Positions 11,128-51,177 of a DNA stretch of 62,459 bases are shown piece after piece. The position numbers were made by a program, and so were the translations under genes. Location of the stretch: positions 1 through 62,459 of IMG/VR virus record IMGVR_UViG_3300025864_000016, one strand, 5' to 3'. The DNA comes from a virus. The first letter of the stretch is position 1; each line of letters begins with the position of its first letter. Under the pieces are notes generated by a model. That model searched no databases, was not told where the DNA came from, and worked only from the letters and a program-made list of their open reading frames with translations.

Positions 11128-12515
11128 GCAACGAAATTATCCCATTGCGCGAACTTTGCCGGACGGCAGGTTTCAGCCGGACAACTTTCTACCGTATGCT
11201 TGGCAGGGGCGACGTTCCAGAACACTTCATCGTGCAAATGTCTGGCGCAACTTGCGGGTACAAACCGGAATTAGTGACTTGGTTGCGCGCCTACAAGCAA
11301 GCCCCGAAAGACTACCGCGTACTTCCCAAAGACGAGATACCGATAAAACAGACACCCGCACCCACCGGCGAAGAAGTTACGGTTGAGGACACGCCGAATC
11401 ACAAGAGCATCACCACGAAGTCTAGCCGACTCCGGACGCTCGAAGACGTGCTGGCCTACAGTGAAATTGACGAAAAGAGTTGGCAAGTTGAATCCTGCAC
11501 CGTGAAGTCGTGGGAAATGGGGTATAAGGCTCAAGTCGTCAGCGAGGAAACGGAAGTCGGCAATGTGAAGACGGCAAAAGCTGATAGCCATATGCTTTAC
11601 GGTATTTCAGTGAAGCTACGACGCATCGTTACAAGCCCCGTAGATGCCGCCTACGCCCTGTTAGAGGCGCGCATTGCAAACCATGCCCCTTTGTATACTC
11701 CGACCGCTTACACGACGCCTACAGACCCCCATATGCTTGAAATTGGCCTTGTTGATTCACACTTCGGTATGCTTTCGTGGCACAAAGAAACGGGTGAGGA
11801 CTACGACCTTAACATCAGCCAGAACATTTACACATACGCGGTAGAGGATATTGTCAACAAAGCGTCGGCATACAGCATTGAGAAAATCCTGTTGCCGGTG
11901 GGGAGTGACTTCTTAGCATGTGATAATTTGGAGTTAGCCACAACAAAAGGCACTCCGCAAGACGTTGACGGGCGACTTGCCAAAATCATCGAGACGGCAC
12001 AAATGGCTATGGTTAATGCTGTTGAGAGACTACGATTAGTTGCTCCAGTAGAAGTTGTGCTTGTTCCTGGCAACCATGATTTTGTATCATCCTTCCATAT
12101 CGCGCACTTCATTGACGCGTGGTTCAGAAATTGTGGCGAAGTCACGGTGAATACTGCCCCTATCAGCCGCAAGTACGTACCCTACGGTGTCACGCTTATC
12201 GGGCTTACCCACGGTGACGGCGTGAAGCAAGCCGAGTTGCCGCTAATTATGGCAACGGAAGCTAAAGAGTTATGGGCTGACACAATATACCGTGAGTGGC
12301 ATATAGGTCACTTTCACACAGAGCGCGAGACACGGTTTACGGCAGTGAATGGCAATGCCGGTGTCAATGTGCGGGTACTTCCCACCCTTGCCCGTACTGA
12401 CCGCTGGAGCTATAGCAAGGGGTATATCTCAACGAAACGTGCCGAAGGTTATGTTTACTCGCGGGCTAATGGTCCAGCAGGGTACGTAATCTCCTATGGG
12501 GGTACAAAGCAATGA
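11124..12515 (+). CDS. HTH plus metallophosphoesterase fusion
   Basis: This 463-residue protein has an N-terminal AlpA/excisionase-like helix-turn-helix (about residues 5-55), a linker, and a calcineurin-like phosphoesterase domain. Metal-binding motifs are in order: D-x-H (211-213), GSD (260-262), GNHD (316-319), HGD (363-365) and GHFH (395-398). Such enzymes cut phosphoesters in nucleotides or nucleic acids. The DNA-binding domain suggests a nucleic acid substrate, but the substrate is unknown. It is coupled by overlap to genes on both sides. Confidence 0.85.
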   Translation: MSNEIIPLRELCRTAGFSRTTFYRMLGRGDVPEHFIVQMSGATCGYKPELVTWLRAYKQAPKDYRVLPKDEIPIKQTPAPTGEEVTVEDTPNHKSITTKSSRLRTLEDVLAYSEIDEKSWQVESCTVKSWEMGYKAQVVSEETEVGNVKTAKADSHMLYGISVKLRRIVTSPVDAAYALLEARIANHAPLYTPTAYTTPTDPHMLEIGLVDSHFGMLSWHKETGEDYDLNISQNIYTYAVEDIVNKASAYSIEKILLPVGSDFLACDNLELATTKGTPQDVDGRLAKIIETAQMAMVNAVERLRLVAPVEVVLVPGNHDFVSSFHIAHFIDAWFRNCGEVTVNTAPISRKYVPYGVTLIGLTHGDGVKQAELPLIMATEAKELWADTIYREWHIGHFHTERETRFTAVNGNAGVNVRVLPTLARTDRWSYSKGYISTKRAEGYVYSRANGPAGYVISYGGTKQ

Positions 12516-13201
12516 CTCTCGCACTAGATACAATTCACCTCGGCAATTGCCTTGACCTTATGCCCCAAATACCCGACGGGAGCGTGGATTGCGTTCTCAC
12601 AGACCCGCCGTATGGCATAAGTTATCAAAGCAATATGCGCGTGGCAAGTGCGCAGTTTGCAGTGCTTGAGAATGATGATAATGATATGCGGTTTGATGCG
12701 TATGTAGAAATATATCGCATATTGAAGGACAACTCAGTAGCTATTGTGTTCTGCTCCTTCAAAAACTATGCTGATGACTACAACGAATTAAAGAAGCTAT
12801 TCTCTATCAAAAATGCAATCATCTGGAATAAAGGCGGCGGTGGCATTGGCGACCTATCTCATAGTCTGTTGACAGACTATGAGATAGCTATCGTAGCACA
12901 CAAGGGTAGTTGCGAGATACGGGGCAAGCGTGACGGCAGTGTCTGGACACACGCCAAAGTTCCACCGAGTGATATGGTTCATGCTACAGAAAAGCCAGTA
13001 TCGTTATTTTCGCGTCTTATGTATAAATTCACTGATGCTGGTGCTGTTGTTCTCGACCCGTTTCTCGGTTCCGGCACAACAGCCGTCGCCGCGCACAACA
13101 CAGGCAGGCACTTCATCGGGATAGAAATGGATGAAACTTACTACAAAATCGCCTGCAAGCGGCTGGCCGACGCGCAGAGCCAGCAGAGGTTGGGGATATG
13201 A
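12512..13201 (+). CDS. DNA methyltransferase, probable N6-adenine type
   Basis: This 229-residue protein has the catalytic DPPY motif at about residues 31-34 and the S-adenosylmethionine-binding DPF.GSGTT motif near 183-191. This order (catalytic motif first) is that of the beta group. No restriction endonuclease partner is adjacent, so it is an orphan that probably protects phage DNA. It overlaps the metallophosphoesterase gene by ATGA. A second, divergent enzyme of this type lies at 43742. Confidence 0.92.
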   Translation: MTLALDTIHLGNCLDLMPQIPDGSVDCVLTDPPYGISYQSNMRVASAQFAVLENDDNDMRFDAYVEIYRILKDNSVAIVFCSFKNYADDYNELKKLFSIKNAIIWNKGGGGIGDLSHSLLTDYEIAIVAHKGSCEIRGKRDGSVWTHAKVPPSDMVHATEKPVSLFSRLMYKFTDAGAVVLDPFLGSGTTAVAAHNTGRHFIGIEMDETYYKIACKRLADAQSQQRLGI

Positions 13202-14884: not shown

Positions 14885-14913
14885 CTTGACAACGAAGCCT
14901 TGATCTGTTACAC
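14885..14913 (+). promoter_or_regulatory. Strong promoter with no evident gene downstream
   Basis: TTGACA (14885-14890), 17-base spacer, TACACT (14908-14913). The gap 14738-15229 contains only very short frames; an 11-codon frame starts near 14930. The predicted transcript would run toward the hairpin at 15168 and then antisense to the early genes. It could make a small RNA. Confidence 0.55.
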
Positions 14914-15167
14914 TATTTTTCAGTAGAAAATGAAAATGCAAGGCGCGCACACATTGCCTCGTTAACAAAGTGTACGCCACCTCCATCGGAGAAGTAATTG
15001 GCAATGGTGGGGGCAACGGAAACAGGATAATAGAATAGAGAAGAGCCTTCGTAAAGCGTTACTATTGAAATGAAATGGACGTATACGGGGGTTCTTTCGT
15101 TTAATATATATCTTACTTCGTAGTTTTGCCATTCTCCAACCTTCGCAGCTTGCCATACATGCGATTG

Positions 15168-15196
15168 TACCCCGCTAGAAGCCTCGTAGCGGGGTA
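15168..15196. terminator. 10-bp perfect stem-loop between convergent units
   Basis: TACCCCGCTA (15168-15177) pairs perfectly with TAGCGGGGTA (15187-15196) around a nine-base loop. It lies just beyond the last gene of the minus-strand early operon and downstream of the promoter at 14885. A bidirectional terminator is plausible, though T-runs are weak. Confidence 0.6.
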
Positions 15197-15229
15197 CGGA
15201 TTGATTATTAGAGGTATTGCACGTCGGGG

Positions 15230-15601
15230 CTAACTGAAGTCCTTGAATGTAAAGCTGAATTTCTCTTCGTCCAGCCAGTAGTAGTCCTCGAAGTCGGAGT
15301 CCGGCGGTACGTCAACGTTGTGCGTCGGCGCGAACTTGAGGGTTGCGCGCGCCATCACAAAGAACTCCTCAACGGTCATATCGTCGCCGGGAATACTGCG
15401 TATTGTGAACCCGTGCGCCGCAATAACCTCTTCCCAGTCCTTTGCGGATTTGATGTCCTTCTCATGGTTGGGGCCGAGGTAGCCGCGCAAGCCCTGAAAG
15501 CCGAACACAGCACCCGCCGAACGTTTGCCTAAATGATATTCCTCGGTTGCACCTCCGCACTCGTGGCAATAAGCTCCGCAATAGTAGTTGGTTGACATCA
15601 T
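15230..15601 (-). CDS. Conserved phage protein with N-terminal zinc site
   Basis: This 123-residue protein begins with a short strand and C-x-x-x-C-x-x-C plus H-L-G-K-x-S-A-G, a pattern I recognise from a widespread small phage protein of unknown function. The C terminus is acidic. It overlaps the upstream gene by ATGA and is the last gene of the 17.8-15.2 kb operon. Confidence 0.75.
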   Translation of the reverse strand: MMSTNYYCGAYCHECGGATEEYHLGKRSAGAVFGFQGLRGYLGPNHEKDIKSAKDWEEVIAAHGFTIRSIPGDDMTVEEFFVMARATLKFAPTHNVDVPPDSDFEDYYWLDEEKFSFTFKDFS

Positions 15602-40829: not shown

Positions 40830-41448
40830 GTAAGTAGTAGGAATATGATGTAGTATTTATCACACAATTGCAAAGTATTTTCCGAGGTAGCAATATGCAA
40901 GGATAAGATCATCATCATCATCATGCTGGTAGCAGGGAATTCACCCCGTCAATTCAACAGATAGGCGCAAAAGGTGTAAATCAAATTGACTCATATGTGA
41001 AAACAAGGCAAAAACACGGCATTGTCAAGCTAATACAGGGATATGACTAGTGGCAGAATAGCACTTGTGGCTTAGAAGGCCTTGCAGGTACCAACAAACG
41101 CATTTCCTGCAGCATGGTAGTGTAACTCATTTTCAACAGGGTAGCATTAACAGGGTATCATATAACGCAGCTGGTAGCTGGTAGCGTAACTCCCGATATC
41201 GCAGGTAGCAGGAGCTGGCAAAGAGCAGTCAAACAGCGGTTTGCATAGCGACGAATAGCAAACAAAGCGACGGCAACGAATACAAACAGACAGACGCGAA
41301 AAGATGTTCGTGAAAAACGGTTTATTTATTAACGATTCGAACGCGCGAAACGAAGTTACCACCTTGCCTAACATTTTTTTCAATTTTTCGCAAAACCAAC
41401 TTTTGTGATAGCACCTATTTGCCTTAAAAATTTTTTTAGATTTTTAAC
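40830..41448. other. Gene-free region between early and late transcription
   Basis: About 620 bases without a convincing gene separate the divergent early promoter (40801) and the plus promoter (41449). It holds six copies of GGTAGC on the plus strand (40886, 40928, 41140, 41173, 41180, 41204), a CAT/ATC triplet run near 40908-40925, an imperfect direct repeat ACGAATA(G)CAAACA near 41250-41290, and A/T tracts near 41370-41445. This fits a packaging, origin or control locus. Confidence 0.6.
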
Positions 41449-41477
41449 TTGACAAACAAACTTCTTTCTGTTATGAT
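41449..41477 (+). promoter_or_regulatory. Plus-strand promoter opening the rightward block
   Basis: TTGACA (41449-41454), 17-base spacer, TATGAT (41472-41477), with A/T tracts upstream that could act as an UP element. It drives the genes from 41498. Confidence 0.9.
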
Positions 41478-41497
41478 TCAATCGAAAGGGGGTGGAT

Positions 41498-41965
41498 ATG
41501 TGTAATCCATTAAAGAGACTGTTCACTGGTTGTAAGCAAAAACTTGGGTTTAACAGCTACGTCGCAAATGTCATCAGTGATAACTACAAGCAAGGCTTAA
41601 AAATCAAGTCGCTTGAGCATGACGTAACAACACTGCTTGCTGAGATAAAATCATTAAATGCTGATTTTCGAGAATGTGGTATTACTTCTTTGCGCGAGAG
41701 TGCTGACCGCTATCGCAACAAGTGCATGGAAATGGAACGTGCTTGCAAAGCTGGTACTTGTGAACGCATTACTCAATTGCAGGAGCGTTACGATACTTGT
41801 TCCACCCGACTGCGTGATGCAGAAGGGAAGCTAAAGGCTCCAGAAACCGAGTATGACAAAATCGAAGAGCTTACGGGTAACGAAATGGCGTGTGGTAATT
41901 CGGAAGTTATGGAATACATTGATGGCCTGCGCGAGAAATTGCTAAAGGCGGGTATTCCTGTATAA
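41498..41965 (+). CDS. Coiled-coil protein
   Basis: This 155-residue protein starts at the ATG after AAAGGGGGTGG. It is mostly coiled coil (about 35-130) with scattered cysteines. First gene of the rightward block. Function unknown. Confidence 0.72.
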   Translation: MCNPLKRLFTGCKQKLGFNSYVANVISDNYKQGLKIKSLEHDVTTLLAEIKSLNADFRECGITSLRESADRYRNKCMEMERACKAGTCERITQLQERYDTCSTRLRDAEGKLKAPETEYDKIEELTGNEMACGNSEVMEYIDGLREKLLKAGIPV

Positions 41966-42124
41966 ATACCCATTTCGCGTCAGGGTTGATTGTAAGCCCC
42001 AAGTTTCCGGTGGTTAGGCAATTCCTCTACTTCGGGTAACTTGTGGCGTGGCGGGCCTATTCTGTTGAATTGCGGGGGTATCCTGCACAGAGTTTGGATT
42101 GTATTATCCTTAAGGGGGATGATT

Positions 42125-42730
42125 ATGGCGAAATTAGAAAAAGAAGTGCCGTCGATTTTTGTCGGTTCACTTGAGGACTTCTTAAGCCTGATGAAGAGCG
42201 GTTTCAAGGACGTTGGCACAGAAGCCGACTTCCAGAAAGCCTGCGAAGTTGACGCAGATAGAATGTGCGATGAGTGTCTTTGTTGCAGTTGTTCCGAGAA
42301 GAGTATGTTAGAGTGCTGCAGAAATATATGCTTGGAGTGCGCAAAGCACACGGCCAGTTCTACAGAACATTGCACAAACTATAAACATATAGCCTGCGAC
42401 GAGTCTGAGGATGACGAACGTTGCATTGCTTGCGGCAACCTGCTTCCGGCCAGCGCGGAGACCTCGTACTGCTATATTTGCGTAAAGAACGGTGTGCGCG
42501 ACCGTATGGAGGCGCTTTACTGCGACAACGCGAAACTCGGTTCGCAACTTGAGATGGCAAACGCGAGGGTGAAAGAGTTGATGGGCGGACTTGATTGGGC
42601 AAGTAATTTGCTTGAGGACGCGGAAGCGATAATGGACAAACTCACTGCTAAAATCGAGAAACGAGATACTAAAATAGCAAAGCTTAAGAAGCGTCTTCGT
42701 GGGCAAGCGCCTACGGAGGTTGCGCTATGA
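42125..42730 (+). CDS. Cys-rich plus coiled-coil protein
   Basis: This 201-residue protein starts MAKLEKE after AAGGGGG. Residues 45-130 contain about sixteen cysteines in C-x2-C groups (CDEC-LCC-C; CC--ICLEC; C-x2-C; C-x2-C), a probable multi-zinc domain, followed by a long charged coiled coil with a basic end. The frame upstream of 42125 is not supported. Confidence 0.72.
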   Translation: MAKLEKEVPSIFVGSLEDFLSLMKSGFKDVGTEADFQKACEVDADRMCDECLCCSCSEKSMLECCRNICLECAKHTASSTEHCTNYKHIACDESEDDERCIACGNLLPASAETSYCYICVKNGVRDRMEALYCDNAKLGSQLEMANARVKELMGGLDWASNLLEDAEAIMDKLTAKIEKRDTKIAKLKKRLRGQAPTEVAL

Positions 42731-42963
42731 AGCTAACATCCGCATCAGTTACTCCCGGAGAATGGCAGTACCCAGGGGACGTGTCGTTTACTTTAGAAGT
42801 GGATAACCAAGAAGAAGCAGACGTAGCGAACGACCCGTCATTCCAGCAATTCGTTTGCGAAAAGATTATCGAGTTGTACAAAGCTGATTTGGATAAACAT
42901 TTCGGCAAAGGCAGTTTTACTAATCCAGATAAGCCATCATGGGATGGCTATCAGTGTAATTAG
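42727..42963 (+). CDS. Small acidic protein
   Basis: This 78-residue protein overlaps the previous gene by ATGA. It has a beta-rich start and an acidic helical second half. It is the last protein gene before the structured RNA region. Function unknown. Confidence 0.68.
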   Translation: MKLTSASVTPGEWQYPGDVSFTLEVDNQEEADVANDPSFQQFVCEKIIELYKADLDKHFGKGSFTNPDKPSWDGYQCN

Positions 42964-43060
42964 GGTGTCCGCTGTGTGCGGTCGGGTTTTGTCGCACCCG
43001 TCAAAAGCGAACGTCAGCCTCATGTGCCAAGTGTACAAGGAGATCGGGCGGGGTAGGTAC

Positions 43061-43089
43061 TTGACAAGTGCCCCGACTGCAGTTACAAT
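43061..43089 (+). promoter_or_regulatory. Promoter of structured RNA/tRNA transcript
   Basis: TTGACA (43061-43066), 17-base spacer, TACAAT (43084-43089), with a small palindrome ACTTG-A-CAAGT over the -35. No protein gene follows; the transcript would contain the stems described next and tRNA-Phe. Confidence 0.82.
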
Positions 43090-43094
43090 GTCGA

Positions 43095-43522
43095 TGTGGA
43101 TGAACGACGTGAAGCGGGGCGTAGCCCCAATGACACTGTCCTCCACAATTAGCGTGAGCGGGAACAGCTGCTGCGGTGCGCCGTATAGCACACGTTCTCA
43201 CTCACTGCCTGCTTTAGCACCGGAAACGATGGGCAGGCGAAAAGGTTTACCGTGTAGGTTTCAGTGACATCAATGTCACCAGATGGTTGGTGTAAGATTG
43301 CACGACACGGTAAACTTCTAAGGTTTTGGTAGCTGTGCCCGCCTGGCGAAACAACTACATAACATGCTTGGGGTCAGCGGTCAGTAACCGCGCCCGCCAG
43401 TGCGGGTGGTTCCTTGGGAACCTGCGGTGAAACTCCGCGCCCCTCGCCTCAAGTTTATTATCGAGGGGTAAAGGGTTCGGCCTGAGCTTCGGCCCCCGAA
43501 TCAAACACCCCTCAAAAGTTTC
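43095..43522 (+). ncRNA. Candidate large structured noncoding RNA
   Basis: Many long complementary arms lie here: TGTGGA/TCCACA (43095/43142), GGGGC/GCCCC around 43116-43128, a 12-position arm at 43154-43165 pairing with 43194-43205 (one mismatch), CAGGCG/CGCCTG (43234/43340) enclosing a perfect 11-bp stem 43245-43255/43305-43315 and GTGACA/TGTCAC (43264/43274), then GCGGT/ACCGC, CCCGC/GCGGG, GGTTCC/GGAACC and CCCCTCG/CGAGGGG (43440/43462). No frame with a good ribosome site covers it. A promoter precedes it and a tRNA follows, the setting of GOLLD/ROOL-type phage RNAs. Class not established. Confidence 0.7.
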
Positions 43523-43599
43523 GCATCTGTAGCTCAGCCCGGTAGAGCGTCGCGGTGAAAACGCGTAGGTCGCAGGTTCGATTCCTGCTGGATGCACCA
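43523..43599 (+). tRNA. tRNA-Phe (GAA) with encoded CCA
   Basis: The 77-base sequence folds as a cloverleaf: acceptor GCATCTG/TGGATGC (two G-U pairs), D-arm GCTC/GAGC with A14 and GG in the loop, anticodon loop GTGAAAA giving GAA, T-arm GCAGG-TTCGATT-CCTGC, and ACCA at the end. The first anticodon-stem pair is T-T, and position 32 is G where a pyrimidine is usual. It could supplement host Phe decoding or be a host-tRNA decoy. Confidence 0.92.
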
Positions 43600-43602
43600 A
43601 AA

Positions 43603-43631
43603 TTGACAATCCAACACATCCGTGTTATTGT
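43603..43631 (+). promoter_or_regulatory. Promoter upstream of methyltransferase
   Basis: TTGACA (43603-43608), 17-base spacer, TATTGT (43626-43631), starting four bases after the tRNA end. Confidence 0.7.
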
Positions 43632-43741
43632 CTAGCCAGCATAGGCCCGCCACCTCTGACATAAGTGCAAATAGCGGGTCTCTTTCTTTTCAATCGCGCC
43701 ACAGACACGCCAAACGCGCCAACTTTCTGAGGGGGAAGCGC

Positions 43742-44479
43742 ATGGAACTGAACCAGATTTACCACGGGGACTGCCTCGAACTAATGGCGGGTATACCGGA
43801 CGGTAGCGTTGATATGGTGCTTTGTGACCTCCCTTACGGAACTACCGCTTGCAAGTGGGATACCATCATACCGTTTGAGCCTCTCTGGGCGCACTACAAG
43901 CGCGTGATTAAGAAGAACGGGGCAATTGTGCTGACCGCAAGCCAGCCGTTCACAACAGAACTTATCGCAAGCAACTTCTCAATGTTCAAGTATGAATTAA
44001 TATGGGATAAGGGACGCGGGTTTGAACCACAATTAGCAAATATCCGACCGATGAAATCACACGAAAACATTATCGTATTTGGGCAAGGAAAACTTTTTTA
44101 TAATCCTCAAAAAACCCCGTGTGAACCATATACGATGAACCGCAAATCTTTGAACAAAAAAGATGGGGAAGGGCAAAATATTTTTGCATCTAAACCGCAA
44201 AGTAAAACCTATAATGAAAAGTTTCCTGTTTCCATACTTCGTGCTGGTTTTGAGCGCGGACTTCACCCAACCCAGAAGCCCGTCGCCCTGTTTGAATACC
44301 TGATTAGAACCTACACAAACGAAGGCGAAACGGTTTTGGATAATTGTTTGGGGTCAGGGACTACGGCGATAGCGGCAATTCGCACGGGGCGCAACTTTAT
44401 CGGTATGGAAAAAGACGATAAATACCACGCTATTGCCTGCGAGCGCGTCAGGCAGGAGCTTGAGCAACAGACACTTTAA
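43742..44479 (+). CDS. DNA methyltransferase, probable N6-adenine type
   Basis: This 245-residue protein starts MELNQIYHGD after AGGGGGAAG; the longer frame upstream is unsupported. The catalytic motif is DLPY (29-32), the cofactor motif D-N-C-L-G-S-G-T-T lies near 200, and HPTQKPVALFEYLI precedes it, as in beta-group enzymes. There is no restriction partner. It probably modifies phage DNA against host restriction. It is distinct from the enzyme at 12512. Confidence 0.93.
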   Translation: MELNQIYHGDCLELMAGIPDGSVDMVLCDLPYGTTACKWDTIIPFEPLWAHYKRVIKKNGAIVLTASQPFTTELIASNFSMFKYELIWDKGRGFEPQLANIRPMKSHENIIVFGQGKLFYNPQKTPCEPYTMNRKSLNKKDGEGQNIFASKPQSKTYNEKFPVSILRAGFERGLHPTQKPVALFEYLIRTYTNEGETVLDNCLGSGTTAIAAIRTGRNFIGMEKDDKYHAIACERVRQELEQQTL

Positions 44480-44488
44480 GGGGACACT

Positions 44489-44800
44489 ATGCCTTATACC
44501 CGCAAAGAATACGACAAACTGATTGCGAACCTCAGTACCCTCGCGCTGGTAACAGGTGCGACTGCGGTTAGTGAGGAACTCCTGTTTGCTGCTACACAGT
44601 TGTCGCTGCACGCCCCGTTTAAGACGCCCGAAGAAGTGGCGCATTATGCCTTCAACCATAGAAGCAAGGGGGAAGCAGACGTGTATAGTCCTTACTACAA
44701 CGATGTTGTAATACCGGCATTTGCTGTCATCTCGCGTGAGATCGACGCCTGCTACCCGACGTTCGCGACCGACTGCCAGGATAACCTGCACTTCACTTGA
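44489..44800 (+). CDS. Small hypothetical protein
   Basis: This 103-residue helical protein has AAGGGGAC upstream and starts nine bases after the methyltransferase. Function unknown. Confidence 0.7.
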   Translation: MPYTRKEYDKLIANLSTLALVTGATAVSEELLFAATQLSLHAPFKTPEEVAHYAFNHRSKGEADVYSPYYNDVVIPAFAVISREIDACYPTFATDCQDNLHFT

Positions 44801-44846
44801 CAAACTTCACCTCCTGATTTATTATTAGCGAAAGGGGGAAGAATTT

Positions 44847-45224
44847 ATGGCAAAGAAACTGAAATGTTCCGACGTGTTCGACGTGCCGACCGCAACCGTG
44901 AGACGCGCATTGCAGGATGCACCTGCTGCTAACTACGTTTTCCAAGAGGGTACGCAGATAGAACCGACGACAGCACCTATTATCTCGGTTTATCCGCATA
45001 GCGATTCTATCACCAGCAGTATTCCCATAGGCTCCGCCGTGAACCTTGGGGACTACAAGTGGCCGACGCTGCCGAAGGAAATGCCCGAAGGCGTGACGCG
45101 CAGGGAGATAGAAGTCGTACCAAGCTGGACGGCCATACGAGAAGCTATTGCAAAGATTGACGCCCTCGAAGCCCGTGTGACCGACCTCGAAAGGGCGCAG
45201 AAGGCACACGCGGTATACAAATAG
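44847..45224 (+). CDS. Hypothetical protein before terminase
   Basis: This 125-residue protein (GGGGGAAG upstream) has a mixed middle and a C-terminal coiled coil (IAKIDALEARVTDLERAQKA). It lies where a small terminase gene is often found, but no HTH of that family is visible. Copy C was inserted right after it. Confidence 0.68.
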   Translation: MAKKLKCSDVFDVPTATVRRALQDAPAANYVFQEGTQIEPTTAPIISVYPHSDSITSSIPIGSAVNLGDYKWPTLPKEMPEGVTRREIEVVPSWTAIREAIAKIDALEARVTDLERAQKAHAVYK

Positions 45225-45233
45225 GCCAGTATG

Positions 45234-45308
45234 TGCTATAATAAAATAGAAATGCCCCAGACATCGCGAAATGCCGGGGCGGTATGCAACCTGTAAAGGA
45301 GGAAGCAC
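45234..45308 (+). promoter_or_regulatory. Cassette leader C
   Basis: TGC-TATAAT (45234-45242), stem GCCCC/GGGGC (45254-45258 with 45276-45280), conserved spacer TATGCAACCTG, GGAGG (45298-45302), start TTG at 45309, 67 nt from the -10. Confidence 0.83.
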
Positions 45309-45995
45309 TTGAAAAGTATAACACGAGTCAAAGACGGAGTCAACTACAGCGTCCCAAACATTCCCATTGGAATGAAGTGGGGCAGGCTTACAGTGCAACA
45401 TCATGCACCAGAAAAGGTCAAAGGGCGATTGCGACATTTCTACATTTGCATTTGCGAGTGTGGAAAGACATGTCGTGTGGTCGGGGAATGTTTGATTTCT
45501 GGTCATACGATTTCATGCGGATGTTATCATGACGAAGTAAGGCTTGTTTGCACAACGACGCATGGCGACAGTCGGCCAGGCAGTAAGTACAAAAGACTAT
45601 TTGAGAGCTGGGGGGATATGATCCGGCGCTGCGAAAAAGAAAAGCGTAAGGATTATCACCATTACGGTGGTAGGGGAATTTTTGTCTGTAATGAGTGGAA
45701 AGATTATCAGACATTTAAAGATTGGGCACTGGCTAATGGGTATAATGAAAAACTATCGCTAGATAGAATTAACAACGACCTAGGCTATAGCCCAAGTAAT
45801 TGCAAATATTCAACAGCAAAACAACAGGCTAGAAATAGGCGTAACAATTATTTACTAACCGCTTTCGATGAAACTAAAAGTATCGCAGAGTGGGTAGAAG
45901 ATAGCCGATGTAGTGTAAACTACAGCACTGTACATGCCAGAGCGACAAGGCTCAAATGGCCCCACGAAAAAGCAATTACGGAACCCGGAAGGTAA
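45309..45995 (+). CDS. Homing-endonuclease-like protein, copy C (TTG start)
   Basis: This 228-residue family member starts at TTG six bases after GGAGG. It has CECGK, HTISCGCY, IRRCEK (CYN is lost), YGGRGIFVCNEW, LDRINND-GYSPSNCKY and FDETKSIAEW blocks. Several core positions differ (NCKY, FDETK), so it may have relaxed constraint. It lies between the 44847 gene and the large terminase and has its own promoter and terminator. Confidence 0.86.
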   Translation: MKSITRVKDGVNYSVPNIPIGMKWGRLTVQHHAPEKVKGRLRHFYICICECGKTCRVVGECLISGHTISCGCYHDEVRLVCTTTHGDSRPGSKYKRLFESWGDMIRRCEKEKRKDYHHYGGRGIFVCNEWKDYQTFKDWALANGYNEKLSLDRINNDLGYSPSNCKYSTAKQQARNRRNNYLLTAFDETKSIAEWVEDSRCSVNYSTVHARATRLKWPHEKAITEPGR

Positions 45996-46020
45996 CTAAT
46001 TGCTCTATCATAAAAACCGA

Positions 46021-46051
46021 AAGACTCTCCTGTAAAGGGGGAGTCTTTTTT
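46021..46051 (+). terminator. Intrinsic terminator of cassette C
   Basis: AAGACTCTCC (46021-46030) pairs with GGGGAGTCTT (46038-46047) with one T-G pair, followed by a T-run to 46051. It lies just 20 bases before the terminase start. Confidence 0.9.
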
Positions 46052-46070: not shown

Positions 46071-47495
46071 ATGCTAAAAAACGTACCAAAGGGAACGCGA
46101 TCCGCCTTCGATGTATGCGTGGCAGATCTGATCAATGACCTCATCATGGAACCCGATAAGGGTTTAGAGCGATACAGGAATGACCCCGTCGGATTCGTGC
46201 GCGAAGTGCTAAATGAAGACCCGTGGGAGAAGCAAGAGGAAGTGTTAGAAGCCGTTAGGGACAATCGACGCGTGACGGTCAGAAGTTGTCACGGGGTGGG
46301 CAAGACAAAATGCGCTTCGTGGGTTGCTTTGTGGTTCTTACTAACACACCCCGATAGCTGCGTGATCAGTACTGCACCGACGTGGCAACAGGTTGAGCAA
46401 CTTTTGTGGAGAGAGATTAGGAATAGTCATGCAAAAAGTAAAATCCCCTTGCCTGGGCAACCATTAACAACAAAGTACGAAATCAATGATAAATGGTTCG
46501 CTTTGGGGCTATCAACAGACAAACCTGAGCGTTTCCAGGGTTTCCATTCTTCCAGTGGAGACATTCTCCTAATCTGCGACGAGGCATCAGGTATTGACCA
46601 AGCCATATATGACGCGGCAGAAGGGTTTCTCGCGAGTGCTGGTGCAAGAATATTGTTAATAGGAAACCCCACACAGATGTCGGGCGAATTTTATTCGAGT
46701 TTTAAAACGTCTATCTATCACAAAATTCATATTTCTGCCTTTGATTCCCCTAATCTTACTCATGGGCAGGTTGTCAGAAAGTACCTCATTACCAAGGAAT
46801 GGGTTGATGAGAAGCGTGTCAAATGGACTGAAGAGTCACCGCTATGGTCGTCAAGGGTACTAGGGGACTTTCCAGAGCAATCAGAAGACACCCTCATACC
46901 TTTGGCGTGGATTGAAGCAGCCATAGCGCGTTACCCAAGTACGGAACGCTCAACCAACGCTCCTTTCCTCGGTTGTGACATAGCCCGGTTTGGTTCAGAC
47001 AGTACCGTTATCTGGTCAGTTTGGGGCAATCGCGCTGAATTGTACGCGCAGATTCGCAAGCAGGACACAATGGAAGTGGCCGGTGCAATCACTAATGCCA
47101 TCAAAGAGACAAGTGCCGCATATGCGAATGTTGACGTGTGCGGGCTTGGGGCTGGTGTTTATGACCGGCTCAAGGAAATGAATCAGCCTGCCATTGACTT
47201 GAACGCGGCGGGCAAGCCTGTTGACACTGAGCGGTTCGTGAATAATAGGGCCGAGTGGTATTGGAACCTGCGAGAGCGCTTCCAATCGGGTGACATTGCA
47301 ATTCCCGACAACGAAGAGCTGGCCGCGCAACTCACTGGCCTAAAGTACAAATTTGATTCACGCGGTAGATACCTCATCGAGAGTAAAGAAGAGATGAAAA
47401 AGCGTGGGATGTCCTCACCCGACCTTGCAGATGCGCTGATGTTGGCGTTCGCTCAGCAGCGTCCCCCGCAAGAAATTGGCGCAATGCTAGTTTAA
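46071..47495 (+). CDS. terL: Terminase large subunit
   Basis: This 474-residue protein has the packaging ATPase Walker A S-C-H-G-V-G-K-T at about 72-79, Walker B ILLICDEASG at about 165-172, and a C-terminal RNase H-like nuclease with the first Asp in GCDIARFGSD (about 303) and a later Asp in PDLADALMLA. It drives DNA into the procapsid and cuts concatemers. Start follows AAAGGTGG. Confidence 0.95.
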   Translation: MLKNVPKGTRSAFDVCVADLINDLIMEPDKGLERYRNDPVGFVREVLNEDPWEKQEEVLEAVRDNRRVTVRSCHGVGKTKCASWVALWFLLTHPDSCVISTAPTWQQVEQLLWREIRNSHAKSKIPLPGQPLTTKYEINDKWFALGLSTDKPERFQGFHSSSGDILLICDEASGIDQAIYDAAEGFLASAGARILLIGNPTQMSGEFYSSFKTSIYHKIHISAFDSPNLTHGQVVRKYLITKEWVDEKRVKWTEESPLWSSRVLGDFPEQSEDTLIPLAWIEAAIARYPSTERSTNAPFLGCDIARFGSDSTVIWSVWGNRAELYAQIRKQDTMEVAGAITNAIKETSAAYANVDVCGLGAGVYDRLKEMNQPAIDLNAAGKPVDTERFVNNRAEWYWNLRERFQSGDIAIPDNEELAAQLTGLKYKFDSRGRYLIESKEEMKKRGMSSPDLADALMLAFAQQRPPQEIGAMLV

Positions 47496-47506
47496 CGGAG
47501 AAACAT

Positions 47507-48877
47507 ATGCAGAAATTAACACTTGGCCAGAGGGTGAAGCAATTCCTCTTTGGCGCTACGCCGTCTCCGTTCAGCGCTTTGTGCAACGTCGGAGACCCGC
47601 TTTGGAAGACTACTGACTACATCACGGCCTCGCGTGAGGCGTACATGGCGAACTGGGTAGTGCTGTCGTGCATTCAGAAGAAAGCCGCGCCCGTGGCCGC
47701 TGTTCCTTGGTACTGTTATACACCTGAGCAGGGCGATAACGGTAAATGGTTAGAGAAGCGCGTGTCCGTTCCAGAAATTGAGGATATGTTCCTCTTTGTG
47801 AATGATAATGATAGCTGGTTGCAGTTTATAACCGCTACCATTGCCAGTCTCGACCTTGGGGGCAAGGCGTACTGGCGCAGTATTGAACCAAAACAAGAAC
47901 TTGAGTGCCTTTACGTGCATGAAACCACGCCGCGTTTTGATGATGGTCAGCGTGCGATAATTGGATACGAACACACAAGCAGTTATGGGGGTGTGCCGAC
48001 GTTCCTAAGTGCAGAAGAAGTGCGCTACATTCGCAACTGGCACCCGTTGGACAAATGGGGTGGGTTAGCCGCAATTCAAGCCGCCGCCAAGCATGTAGAT
48101 ATTGCTAATGCTGGTGCTGGCTGGAATCTAGCGTTACTGCAAAACTCCGCCCGGCCAGGTGGTATTCTCTCAACAGACGCTACCCCTACACCCGAACAAC
48201 GTGAAGACGTGTTAAAAGCAGTTGAGGCCCGTTCTGGCGCAGCCAATCAAGGCAAAAGCCTGTTTGTGTGGGGTGGTATTAAATATGACCGCGATACCAT
48301 GACTCCTACCGATATGGCGTGGGGTGAGCTGGACGTTCGTGCAGCCTTGGCTATATGCAATGTCCTAGGTGTCCCTGCGCAAAAACTGAATATTCCCGGT
48401 TCGGAACAGTACGCGAATAAGGAACAGAGCGAAGAGAGCTTTGTTACTGATAGTATATTGCCTGTTTTGACTAGGGTTCAAAGACACTTGCAGCATTGGC
48501 AAATTCCCAAGATGCTTGCTAAGCCAATGATGAGTCATTATCCGCCAAACTTACGGATAGCATTTGACACAGAAGCTATCAGCGCGTTGCAGGAAGATAG
48601 AGACGCACTTTACGCCCGCACTATCGAGGCCGTAGACAAGGGAATTATCACCCTTCAGCAGGCTTGTGACACACTCGGCTACGATTGGGATGAGATTGGC
48701 ACCCGCCTTGTGGACGGCGACCGCCAAACACTCGAAACTGTGCTGAATGAAGTCTCGCAACCAGACAAAACAGGGGCAAGCCGCGTTGTGGTAGCCCCCG
48801 GAAGTGTTCCCGATAATAATAAGCCAGCAGTAGCAGAGGAGGCAACTAATGCCACAGCAAACAATACTCAAAAATAG
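47507..48877 (+). CDS. Portal protein, HK97 type
   Basis: This 456-residue protein follows the terminase by 11 bases. It matches HK97-like portals: W-L-SCIQKKA at the start, RYIRNWHPLDKWGGL, a helical stem and P-Q-K-L-N-IP-GSEQYANKEQSEESF near 300. It forms the 12-subunit channel for DNA entry. Its end overlaps the protease gene by 29 bases. Confidence 0.93.
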   Translation: MQKLTLGQRVKQFLFGATPSPFSALCNVGDPLWKTTDYITASREAYMANWVVLSCIQKKAAPVAAVPWYCYTPEQGDNGKWLEKRVSVPEIEDMFLFVNDNDSWLQFITATIASLDLGGKAYWRSIEPKQELECLYVHETTPRFDDGQRAIIGYEHTSSYGGVPTFLSAEEVRYIRNWHPLDKWGGLAAIQAAAKHVDIANAGAGWNLALLQNSARPGGILSTDATPTPEQREDVLKAVEARSGAANQGKSLFVWGGIKYDRDTMTPTDMAWGELDVRAALAICNVLGVPAQKLNIPGSEQYANKEQSEESFVTDSILPVLTRVQRHLQHWQIPKMLAKPMMSHYPPNLRIAFDTEAISALQEDRDALYARTIEAVDKGIITLQQACDTLGYDWDEIGTRLVDGDRQTLETVLNEVSQPDKTGASRVVVAPGSVPDNNKPAVAEEATNATANNTQK

Positions 48878-50019: not shown

Positions 50020-51177
50020 ATGGATGAATTAGTACAAAAGGTAGAGGAGCTTGCTGCTACTACCGCAGAGTTCAAGCGCACAAACGATGAGCGGCTTGCT
50101 ACCATCGAGGCTACGGGCAAAGAGTCTGTCATACAGACTGAAAAACTGGGGGCGATTGAGGCAGAATTGATTCGCCTTGAAGATTCTATCACTAAGCTGA
50201 ATCGCACATCCGCTGGCACTACCGCCGACGCGAAGGACGCGAAGACAGAAGCCTTTTTCGCTGGTATTCGCATGGGGTTGTCCCCGGATATGCCTTCCGA
50301 AATCAAGATGGGGATGACCGTAGCCAACGACACGACTGGTGGCTATCTGGCAAGCCCAGAGTACCTGTCCACAATCATGCGTAACATTAACGAGTACAGC
50401 GATGTGCGCGGCCTTGTTACCGTAAAGCCCACTACGAAAAAGGAAATCTCCTGGCCGACACGCACGCAGGGAACCGTGGCCCGGTTCGTCGGCGAGACTG
50501 AGCTCCGCACAGAGAGCCAGAACCCCCTGTATGGGCGCGATAAGATTCTCACTCGTGAGATGTATGCGATCATCGACGTGTCCAATGAAGACTTGGAAGA
50601 TAGCGATTATGACCTCGAAGGTATGATTCGCGACGAGATCACCGAGAGCTTCACCCTGCTGGAAGGCACGAGTGTTGTGTCCGGCACTGGTATAAACGGA
50701 GCGCCGTTCGGGTTCATGAATGCGGCTGGTATCGCTGAAGTCGTGTCTGGCGCTGCTACCACGATCCCTTCTGCCGACCCGCTTATTTCTTTGATGTACA
50801 ACATCAAAGACGTATATCAGCGCAATGGCGTTTGGGCTTTTAATCGCTCTACGTTGTCTGCTATCCGAAAACTGAAAGACGGGAATAACCAGTATCTGTG
50901 GGCACCGGGCATTGCTGGCGCAATCCCGAATACCATTCTTGACCGTCCGTATATCATTGTGCCGGATATGCCGAGCATTGGCGCTGGTCTGTACCCGGTC
51001 GTGTTCGGCGACCTCAAACGGGGTTACTGGCTAGTGGACCGCACTCAGCTCACCTTCACCCGCGACATCTATACACAGGCAACTTCTGGCTACGTTCGCA
51101 TCCTTGCCCGCAAGCGCATCGGTGGCAACGTGGTTCGCGCAGAGGCCTTTGCTAAACTGAAAATCGCCGCTTCCTAA
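50020..51177 (+). CDS. Major capsid protein, HK97 fold
   Basis: This 385-residue protein has an N-terminal coiled coil (about 1-65), then F-AGIRMGLSPD..., GGYLASPEYLSTIMR and VGETELRTES features of HK97-like capsids, and a KRGYWLVDRTQLTFTRD ending. The coiled coil probably acts as a delta domain cut off by the protease. Confidence 0.94.
   Translation: MDELVQKVEELAATTAEFKRTNDERLATIEATGKESVIQTEKLGAIEAELIRLEDSITKLNRTSAGTTADAKDAKTEAFFAGIRMGLSPDMPSEIKMGMTVANDTTGGYLASPEYLSTIMRNINEYSDVRGLVTVKPTTKKEISWPTRTQGTVARFVGETELRTESQNPLYGRDKILTREMYAIIDVSNEDLEDSDYDLEGMIRDEITESFTLLEGTSVVSGTGINGAPFGFMNAAGIAEVVSGAATTIPSADPLISLMYNIKDVYQRNGVWAFNRSTLSAIRKLKDGNNQYLWAPGIAGAIPNTILDRPYIIVPDMPSIGAGLYPVVFGDLKRGYWLVDRTQLTFTRDIYTQATSGYVRILARKRIGGNVVRAEAFAKLKIAAS

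Follow-up and report, generated by a model that had tools for sequence, protein, structure and literature searches.

A candidate structured non-coding RNA between a strong promoter and tRNA-Phe in a tailed phage

A strong sigma-70 type promoter and an intact tRNA-Phe gene of a tailed phage enclose a stretch that has no credible gene in 43192-43522 and folds with an energy below that expected by chance. These results support a promoter-driven non-coding transcript ending in tRNA-Phe, with a probable RNase P cut at 43522/43523, and 43097-43522 is a plausible, as yet unproven, candidate for a new RNA. In the explanation that we prefer, the promoter at 43061 would drive a non-coding transcript from a start near 43096. 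The transcript would fold into three domains filling the space to the tRNA and, with no terminator to stop it, would run on into tRNA-Phe. Host RNase P would then generate the mature 5′ end of the tRNA and the 3′ end of a ~426-nt RNA together, and this RNA would persist as a stable structured RNA beside the tRNA-Phe of the phage, as phage long non-coding RNAs near tRNAs do. We hold such a split of one dedicated transcript into tRNA-Phe and a stable structured RNA only tentatively, at slightly under an even chance. It is favoured by the recurrent class of the promoter, the absence of an ORF with a Shine-Dalgarno site comparable to those at other promoters, the non-coding character of 43260-43700, a fold that beats shuffled sequences, an 11-bp stem, the intact tRNA, the high G+C content and the precedents of phage K and ICP1. 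The lack of relatives, the folding of the minus strand, an ordinary number of stems, a fold that depends on the chosen ends and a coding-like signal at the 5′ side speak against it.

The phage record, the promoter at 43061 and tRNA-Phe

The window analysed is a whole IMG/VR virus record of 62,459 bases. The large terminase, portal and major head protein are all present, and the record is thus that of a tailed phage. TerL shares at best ~42% identity with those of named phages and, one contig excepted, no more than 46% with those in IMG/VR. The exception, IMGVR_UViG_3300025846_000053, is 100% identical across all 3,784 bases that it shares with 41000-46000. The lineage is therefore nearly alone in the collections, which limits what can be said of it.

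Searches for the RNA led back to the same contig. Only tRNA or chance matches were obtained by blastn against phages and plasmids. The identical contig was the sole hit when IMG/VR was scanned with the RNA as a degenerate pseudo-protein in the three plus frames, and again in a tRNA pattern search; a 16-mer in IMG/VR gave this contig and nine chance matches. In the genomes of TerL relatives, neither DNA searches nor a covariance model built from the one sequence revealed a further copy of the RNA, and none of these relatives (IMG/VR, bacterial genomes) other than the identical contig has it; such scans detect close relatives only, and a diverged family could escape them.

The promoter matches 11 of the 12 consensus positions with a 17-nt spacer, as the earlier note had claimed in describing it as a consensus promoter. 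Across the record, sites that match 11 or 12 of the 12 positions are far more numerous than the 0.5 expected in shuffled sequence. The promoter thus belongs to a set of strong promoters that recurs in the phage, and it is real by statistics. At nearly all the other strong promoters, an ORF with a Shine-Dalgarno site lies 13-173 nt past the expected start. The promoter at 43061, with an expected start at ~43096, differs from these, being followed by 426 nt without a credible gene and then by tRNA-Phe. The next ORF of ordinary size with a Shine-Dalgarno site is that of the methyltransferase, 645 nt away and served by a separate promoter at 43603. The one candidate closer than this is a 31-codon GTG ORF, 238 nt downstream and before the tRNA. 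If the promoter at 43061 is used, ~426 nt of RNA would precede the tRNA in the transcript that yields it.

The sole tRNA of the record is this tRNA-Phe, which scores 61 bits with the Rfam tRNA model and folds separately in the joint minimum-energy structure. A second tRNA was found neither by ARAGORN nor by Rfam. No terminator-like site occurs in 42000-44500 on either strand, so the description of a tRNA that follows with no terminator in between was correct. At ~46015-46050, directly before the terminase gene, there is a strong terminator-like hairpin (AAAGACTCTCC..GGGGGAGTCTTTTTT); the phage thus has such terminators elsewhere, yet none after the tRNA.

Further observations concern the surroundings. 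The promoter of the methyltransferase lies inside an imperfect palindrome at 43605-43632, GACAAT..AACAC-ATCC-GTGTT ATTGTC (GACAATccAACAC-ATCC-GTGTTATTGTC), which may be an operator. Downstream, the gene at 44489-44800 is an orphan too. An HNH endonuclease (PHROGs) is encoded at 45309-45995; it is one of ~7 similar ORFs (14018, 16877, 20221, 28305, 45309, 52877 and 57349) with like N-termini, e.g. KDGVNYT..NMPxGM, which look like a repeated homing-endonuclease family scattered over the phage. The strongest local fold of the record (z ~ -8) is a hairpin of 15 perfect base pairs and a 4-nt loop at 12854-12887, CTATCTCATAGTCTG-TTGA-CAGACTATGAGATAG, within the DNA methyltransferase-like ORF 12512-13201. 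At 14886-15230, a promoter-like TTGACA-17-TACACT with no ORF after it is followed by ~300 nt of apparently non-coding sequence, which ends with a strong hairpin (GTACCCCGCTA..TAGCGGGGTAC) near 15168-15198.

Table 1. Features of the candidate RNA and its surroundings, in window positions
Feature	Position	Strand	Remarks
Sigma-70 type promoter, TTGACA-17-TACAAT	43061..43089	+	11/12 consensus
Predicted 5′ hairpin, closed by TGTGGA/TCCACA, inner GGGGC-GTA-GCCCC	43095..43147	+	begins at expected transcript start
Candidate structured non-coding RNA, from the promoter up to the tRNA	43097..43522	+	fold z -3.4 to -4.1; codon statistics; no comparable ORF with Shine-Dalgarno site
Predicted middle domain, three hairpins enclosed	43158..43342	+	closed by long-range helix
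GAAA-capped hairpin	43206-43239	+	predicted, middle domain
Predicted 3′ domain, five hairpins	43346..43524	+	closed by GCGAAAC/GTTTCGC
Hairpins of predicted 3′ domain	43377-43391, 43392-43407, 43408-43422, 43424-43438, 43463-43513	+	
Presumed RNase P cut	43522/43523	+	would give mature tRNA 5′ end
tRNA-Phe, anticodon GAA, CCA encoded	43523..43599	+	intact; Rfam tRNA 61 bits
Second promoter, TTGACA-17-TATTGT	43603..43631	+	4 nt past tRNA; serves DNA methyltransferase
DNA methyltransferase	43742-44479		
Large terminase	46071-47495		
Portal	47507-48877		
Major head protein	50020-51177		

Folding of the interval and its predicted anatomy

The candidate RNA is 426 nt long (503 nt with the tRNA included), and its minimum-energy fold reaches -170.8 kcal/mol. 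The fold z was -4.1 with 100 dinucleotide shuffles, -3.8 with a second set of 60 and -3.4 with 40; not one sequence in the sets of 100 and 60 folded as stably. The overlapping genome window ranked fourth of 146 by folding (top 3% genome-wide), and a G+C content of 55% puts the stretch among the top 4% of windows. The fold appears somewhat better defined than those of shuffled sequences, positional entropy being as low in 2 of 60; by ensemble diversity, 3 of 60 were equally well defined. On the minus strand the z was -5.2 (40-shuffle run), and the share of G-U pairs is similar on both strands (16 vs 18) and does not separate them. As the minus strand folds at least equally well, folding does not fix the strand, and the choice of the plus strand comes from the promoter and the tRNA.

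At least ten long complementary arms had earlier been taken as a sign of structure, a view that the counts do not sustain. There are ten perfect stems of at least 6 bp within ~80 nt, the shuffle mean is 8.0 (sd 2.8), and ten are reached by 25 of 100 shuffles, so that the number is ordinary. The one exceptional stem of the stretch is the perfect 11-bp stem 43245-43255/43305-43315, which has an equal in 0 of 100 shuffles and in ~4% of equal-sized phage windows. It had been described as nested in a 6-bp stem, and it does lie within a long-range helix containing ACAGCT/AGCTGT.

Next in standing to the processed stable RNA comes the possibility that the promoter simply serves the tRNA and that the tRNA-Phe precursor has the interval as a long 5′ leader, which RNase P removes and which is then degraded, its hairpins being incidental in a G+C-rich stretch. 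The stem count within chance, the equal folding of the minus strand, the shuffles that match the ensemble diversity and the lack of relatives are in keeping with it. A leader of 426 nt is long beside the 13-173 nt at the other promoters of the phage, and the fold energy, which is lower than in shuffled sequence and ranks in the top 3% genome-wide, also argues against it; we consider a discarded leader unlikely, though a serious contender. If instead the stable RNA that we prefer is made, its fold may be under selection, and it may have a function beyond that of a tRNA precursor.

The helix model was built in five folding contexts from a single sequence, the sole relative being 100% identical. 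Predicted helices group into three successive domains. The 5′ hairpin, of which the first closing pairs were read from the sequence, has P >0.8 in three of the five contexts and near 0 in two. The middle domain is closed by a 14-pair long-range helix, GCGGGAACAGCTGCT/GGTAGCTGTGCCCGC, at 43158-43172/43328-43342, with P 0.34-0.88 across contexts. A 13-pair helix of this domain, AGGTTTACCGTGT/ACACGGTAAACTT, which has the 11-bp perfect stem as its core, reaches P 0.96 in all contexts. In the 3′ domain, the hairpins 43408-43422 and 43463-43513 have P >0.9 in all contexts. The closing helix pairs GCGAAAC (43346-43352) with GTTTCGC (43518-43524) and so reaches nucleotides 1-2 of the tRNA; P is ~0.9 in three contexts and near 0 when the sequence ends at 43522 or 43599. 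Because it takes the first two tRNA bases, this helix would compete with the top of the acceptor stem. A second competition is predicted near the 3′ end, where GAGGGGT (43463-43469) can pair with CCCCTCG (43440-43446) or with ACCCCTC (43507-43513). The global fold shifts with the chosen ends, and two elements, the hairpin at the 5′ end and the helix closing the 3′ domain, form in some contexts only, so that the anatomy is a tentative model.

A further step would be to see in these three domains a large structured phage RNA of a new class, with no relation to GOLLD or ROOL, that extends from a promoter of its own up to a tRNA and obtains its 3′ end through RNase P when the tRNA is released. We think this rather doubtful. 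If such a class exists, the 3′ closing helix could, through the first two tRNA bases, couple folding of the RNA to maturation of the tRNA; the new class and this coupling, taken together, carry that same doubt.

Coding potential of the interval

Codon statistics trained on the genes of the phage itself were applied to both strands. They are non-coding on either strand across 43260-43700, and within this region all frames of 43268-43522 are non-coding. The earlier statement that the stretch holds no supported gene therefore stands for 43192-43522. In the 5′ part, the frame from 42944 scores as non-coding, but the antisense frame 42937-43191 as coding-like.

A small protein encoded in part of the stretch would come from one of these two frames. 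The minus-strand ORF 42937-43191 (84 aa, GTG start) has a coding-like log-odds of 0.19 per codon, higher than any of 54 spurious ORFs that lie within known genes, which reach 0.13 at most. On the plus strand, the frame 42944-43267 (107 aa), which overlaps the end of the gene 42727-42963, is mildly positive at 43080-43140; its overall score is -0.02, below 99% of in-frame pieces. No Pfam family matched either frame, PHROGs and tblastn against phages gave chance-level matches only, and the plus frame was seen in IMG/VR in the identical contig only. On inspection neither start has a clear Shine-Dalgarno site. The minus ORF, moreover, stands alone amid plus-strand genes and overlies the promoter, and 43268-43522 is covered by neither frame. 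A small protein thus seems an improbable explanation of the stretch.

Known RNA families and comparison with other phage RNAs

At both gathering and permissive thresholds, Rfam identified the tRNA only; matches to Tymo tRNA-like, mir-299 and the Trp leader were far below the cut-offs. Neither GOLLD nor ROOL, the families to which the earlier note had thought the RNA might belong, matched with its Rfam covariance model at E 10 or better. For GOLLD (RF02032) this holds with permissive filters and in a dedicated search. For ROOL (RF03087) the dedicated search gave no match at E 10 or better, and none in its control genomes either. Both negative results rest on the standard models, and on permissive filters applied to short stretches.

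Screens for ribozymes gave nothing convincing for a hammerhead core. A simplified HDV-like motif had no match on the plus strand and matches at the level of shuffled sequence on the minus strand; no HDV-like Rfam family matched. The motif GGGAA..GCGG-TGAAACT-CCGC recalls the core of cobalamin riboswitches. This candidate was rejected, as no cobalamin family reached E 10 or better in Rfam. At 43389-43473, hairpins resembling a D arm, an anticodon arm and a T arm occur consecutively and match Tymo_tRNA-like with 18.8 bits (E 0.06-0.22; gathering score 40), probably by chance.

If these arms were instead taken as a trace of ancestry, the stretch might be a decayed tRNA island or gene remnant that is now a neutral spacer, and what coding-like signal remains on the 5′ side would agree with this. 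The match is far under the gathering score, a second tRNA is given by neither ARAGORN nor Rfam, and a strong promoter has been retained, all of which make a remnant quite improbable. Least probable is a divergent GOLLD or ROOL RNA: phage origin and an adjoining tRNA, frequent in both families (PMC12286853), would fit, while the failure of both models even with permissive filters and a length of 426 nt, which falls short of the 574 positions of the ROOL model and of the length of GOLLDs, speak against it.

Long, elaborate RNAs whose function is unknown are made by phages next to their tRNAs. If the stable processed RNA proposed here is real, it would be a further, unrelated example from a separate lineage, and would suggest that such an arrangement has arisen repeatedly and that tRNA processing is a general route to the ends of such RNAs. 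The weight of this is small for now, since it comes from one sequence.

ROOL RNAs come from phages or prophages, where tRNA genes are often close by; they are large, multi-branched RNAs of unknown function (PMC12286853). The candidate shares the phage origin and the adjoining tRNA. It is shorter than ROOL, which is about 570-660 nt long, and it is known from one sequence, whereas ROOL has a covariation-supported fold with pseudoknots, is abundant and forms an RNA-only octamer nanocage. GOLLD RNAs likewise are large, of phage or prophage origin and near tRNAs (PMC12286853). The candidate has the origin and the neighbourhood in common with them; it is roughly half as long as many GOLLDs (many exceed 800 nt), has a single tRNA at its 3′ end and gives no model match to the conserved 3′ region of GOLLD. 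Theta ribozymes are HDV-like, lie beside phage tRNAs and have been proposed to process tRNA 3′ trailers (PMC10879173). Like them, the candidate is a predicted structured RNA adjoining a phage tRNA; their fold is a nested double pseudoknot proposed to act on the 3′ trailer, whereas the structure of the candidate lies 5′ of the tRNA.

Phage K has two long non-coding RNAs next to tRNA genes that are abundantly transcribed (PMC9241854), and in ICP1, a phage without tRNAs, no transcript exceeds a ~800-nt non-coding RNA in abundance (PMC7567579). In sequence, the candidate had no meaningful match in the annotated phage collection. These RNAs were seen by RNA-seq, while the candidate is predicted from sequence. 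Like them it would be long, non-coding and outside the named families, and in phage K the RNAs also lie beside tRNA genes. With its promoter, predicted structure and no known family, the candidate would, if transcribed, fit the loose kind of phage long non-coding RNA. It would be an orphan among the phage long RNAs beside tRNAs, outside GOLLD and ROOL; phage K and ICP1 offer the closest, if loose, precedent.
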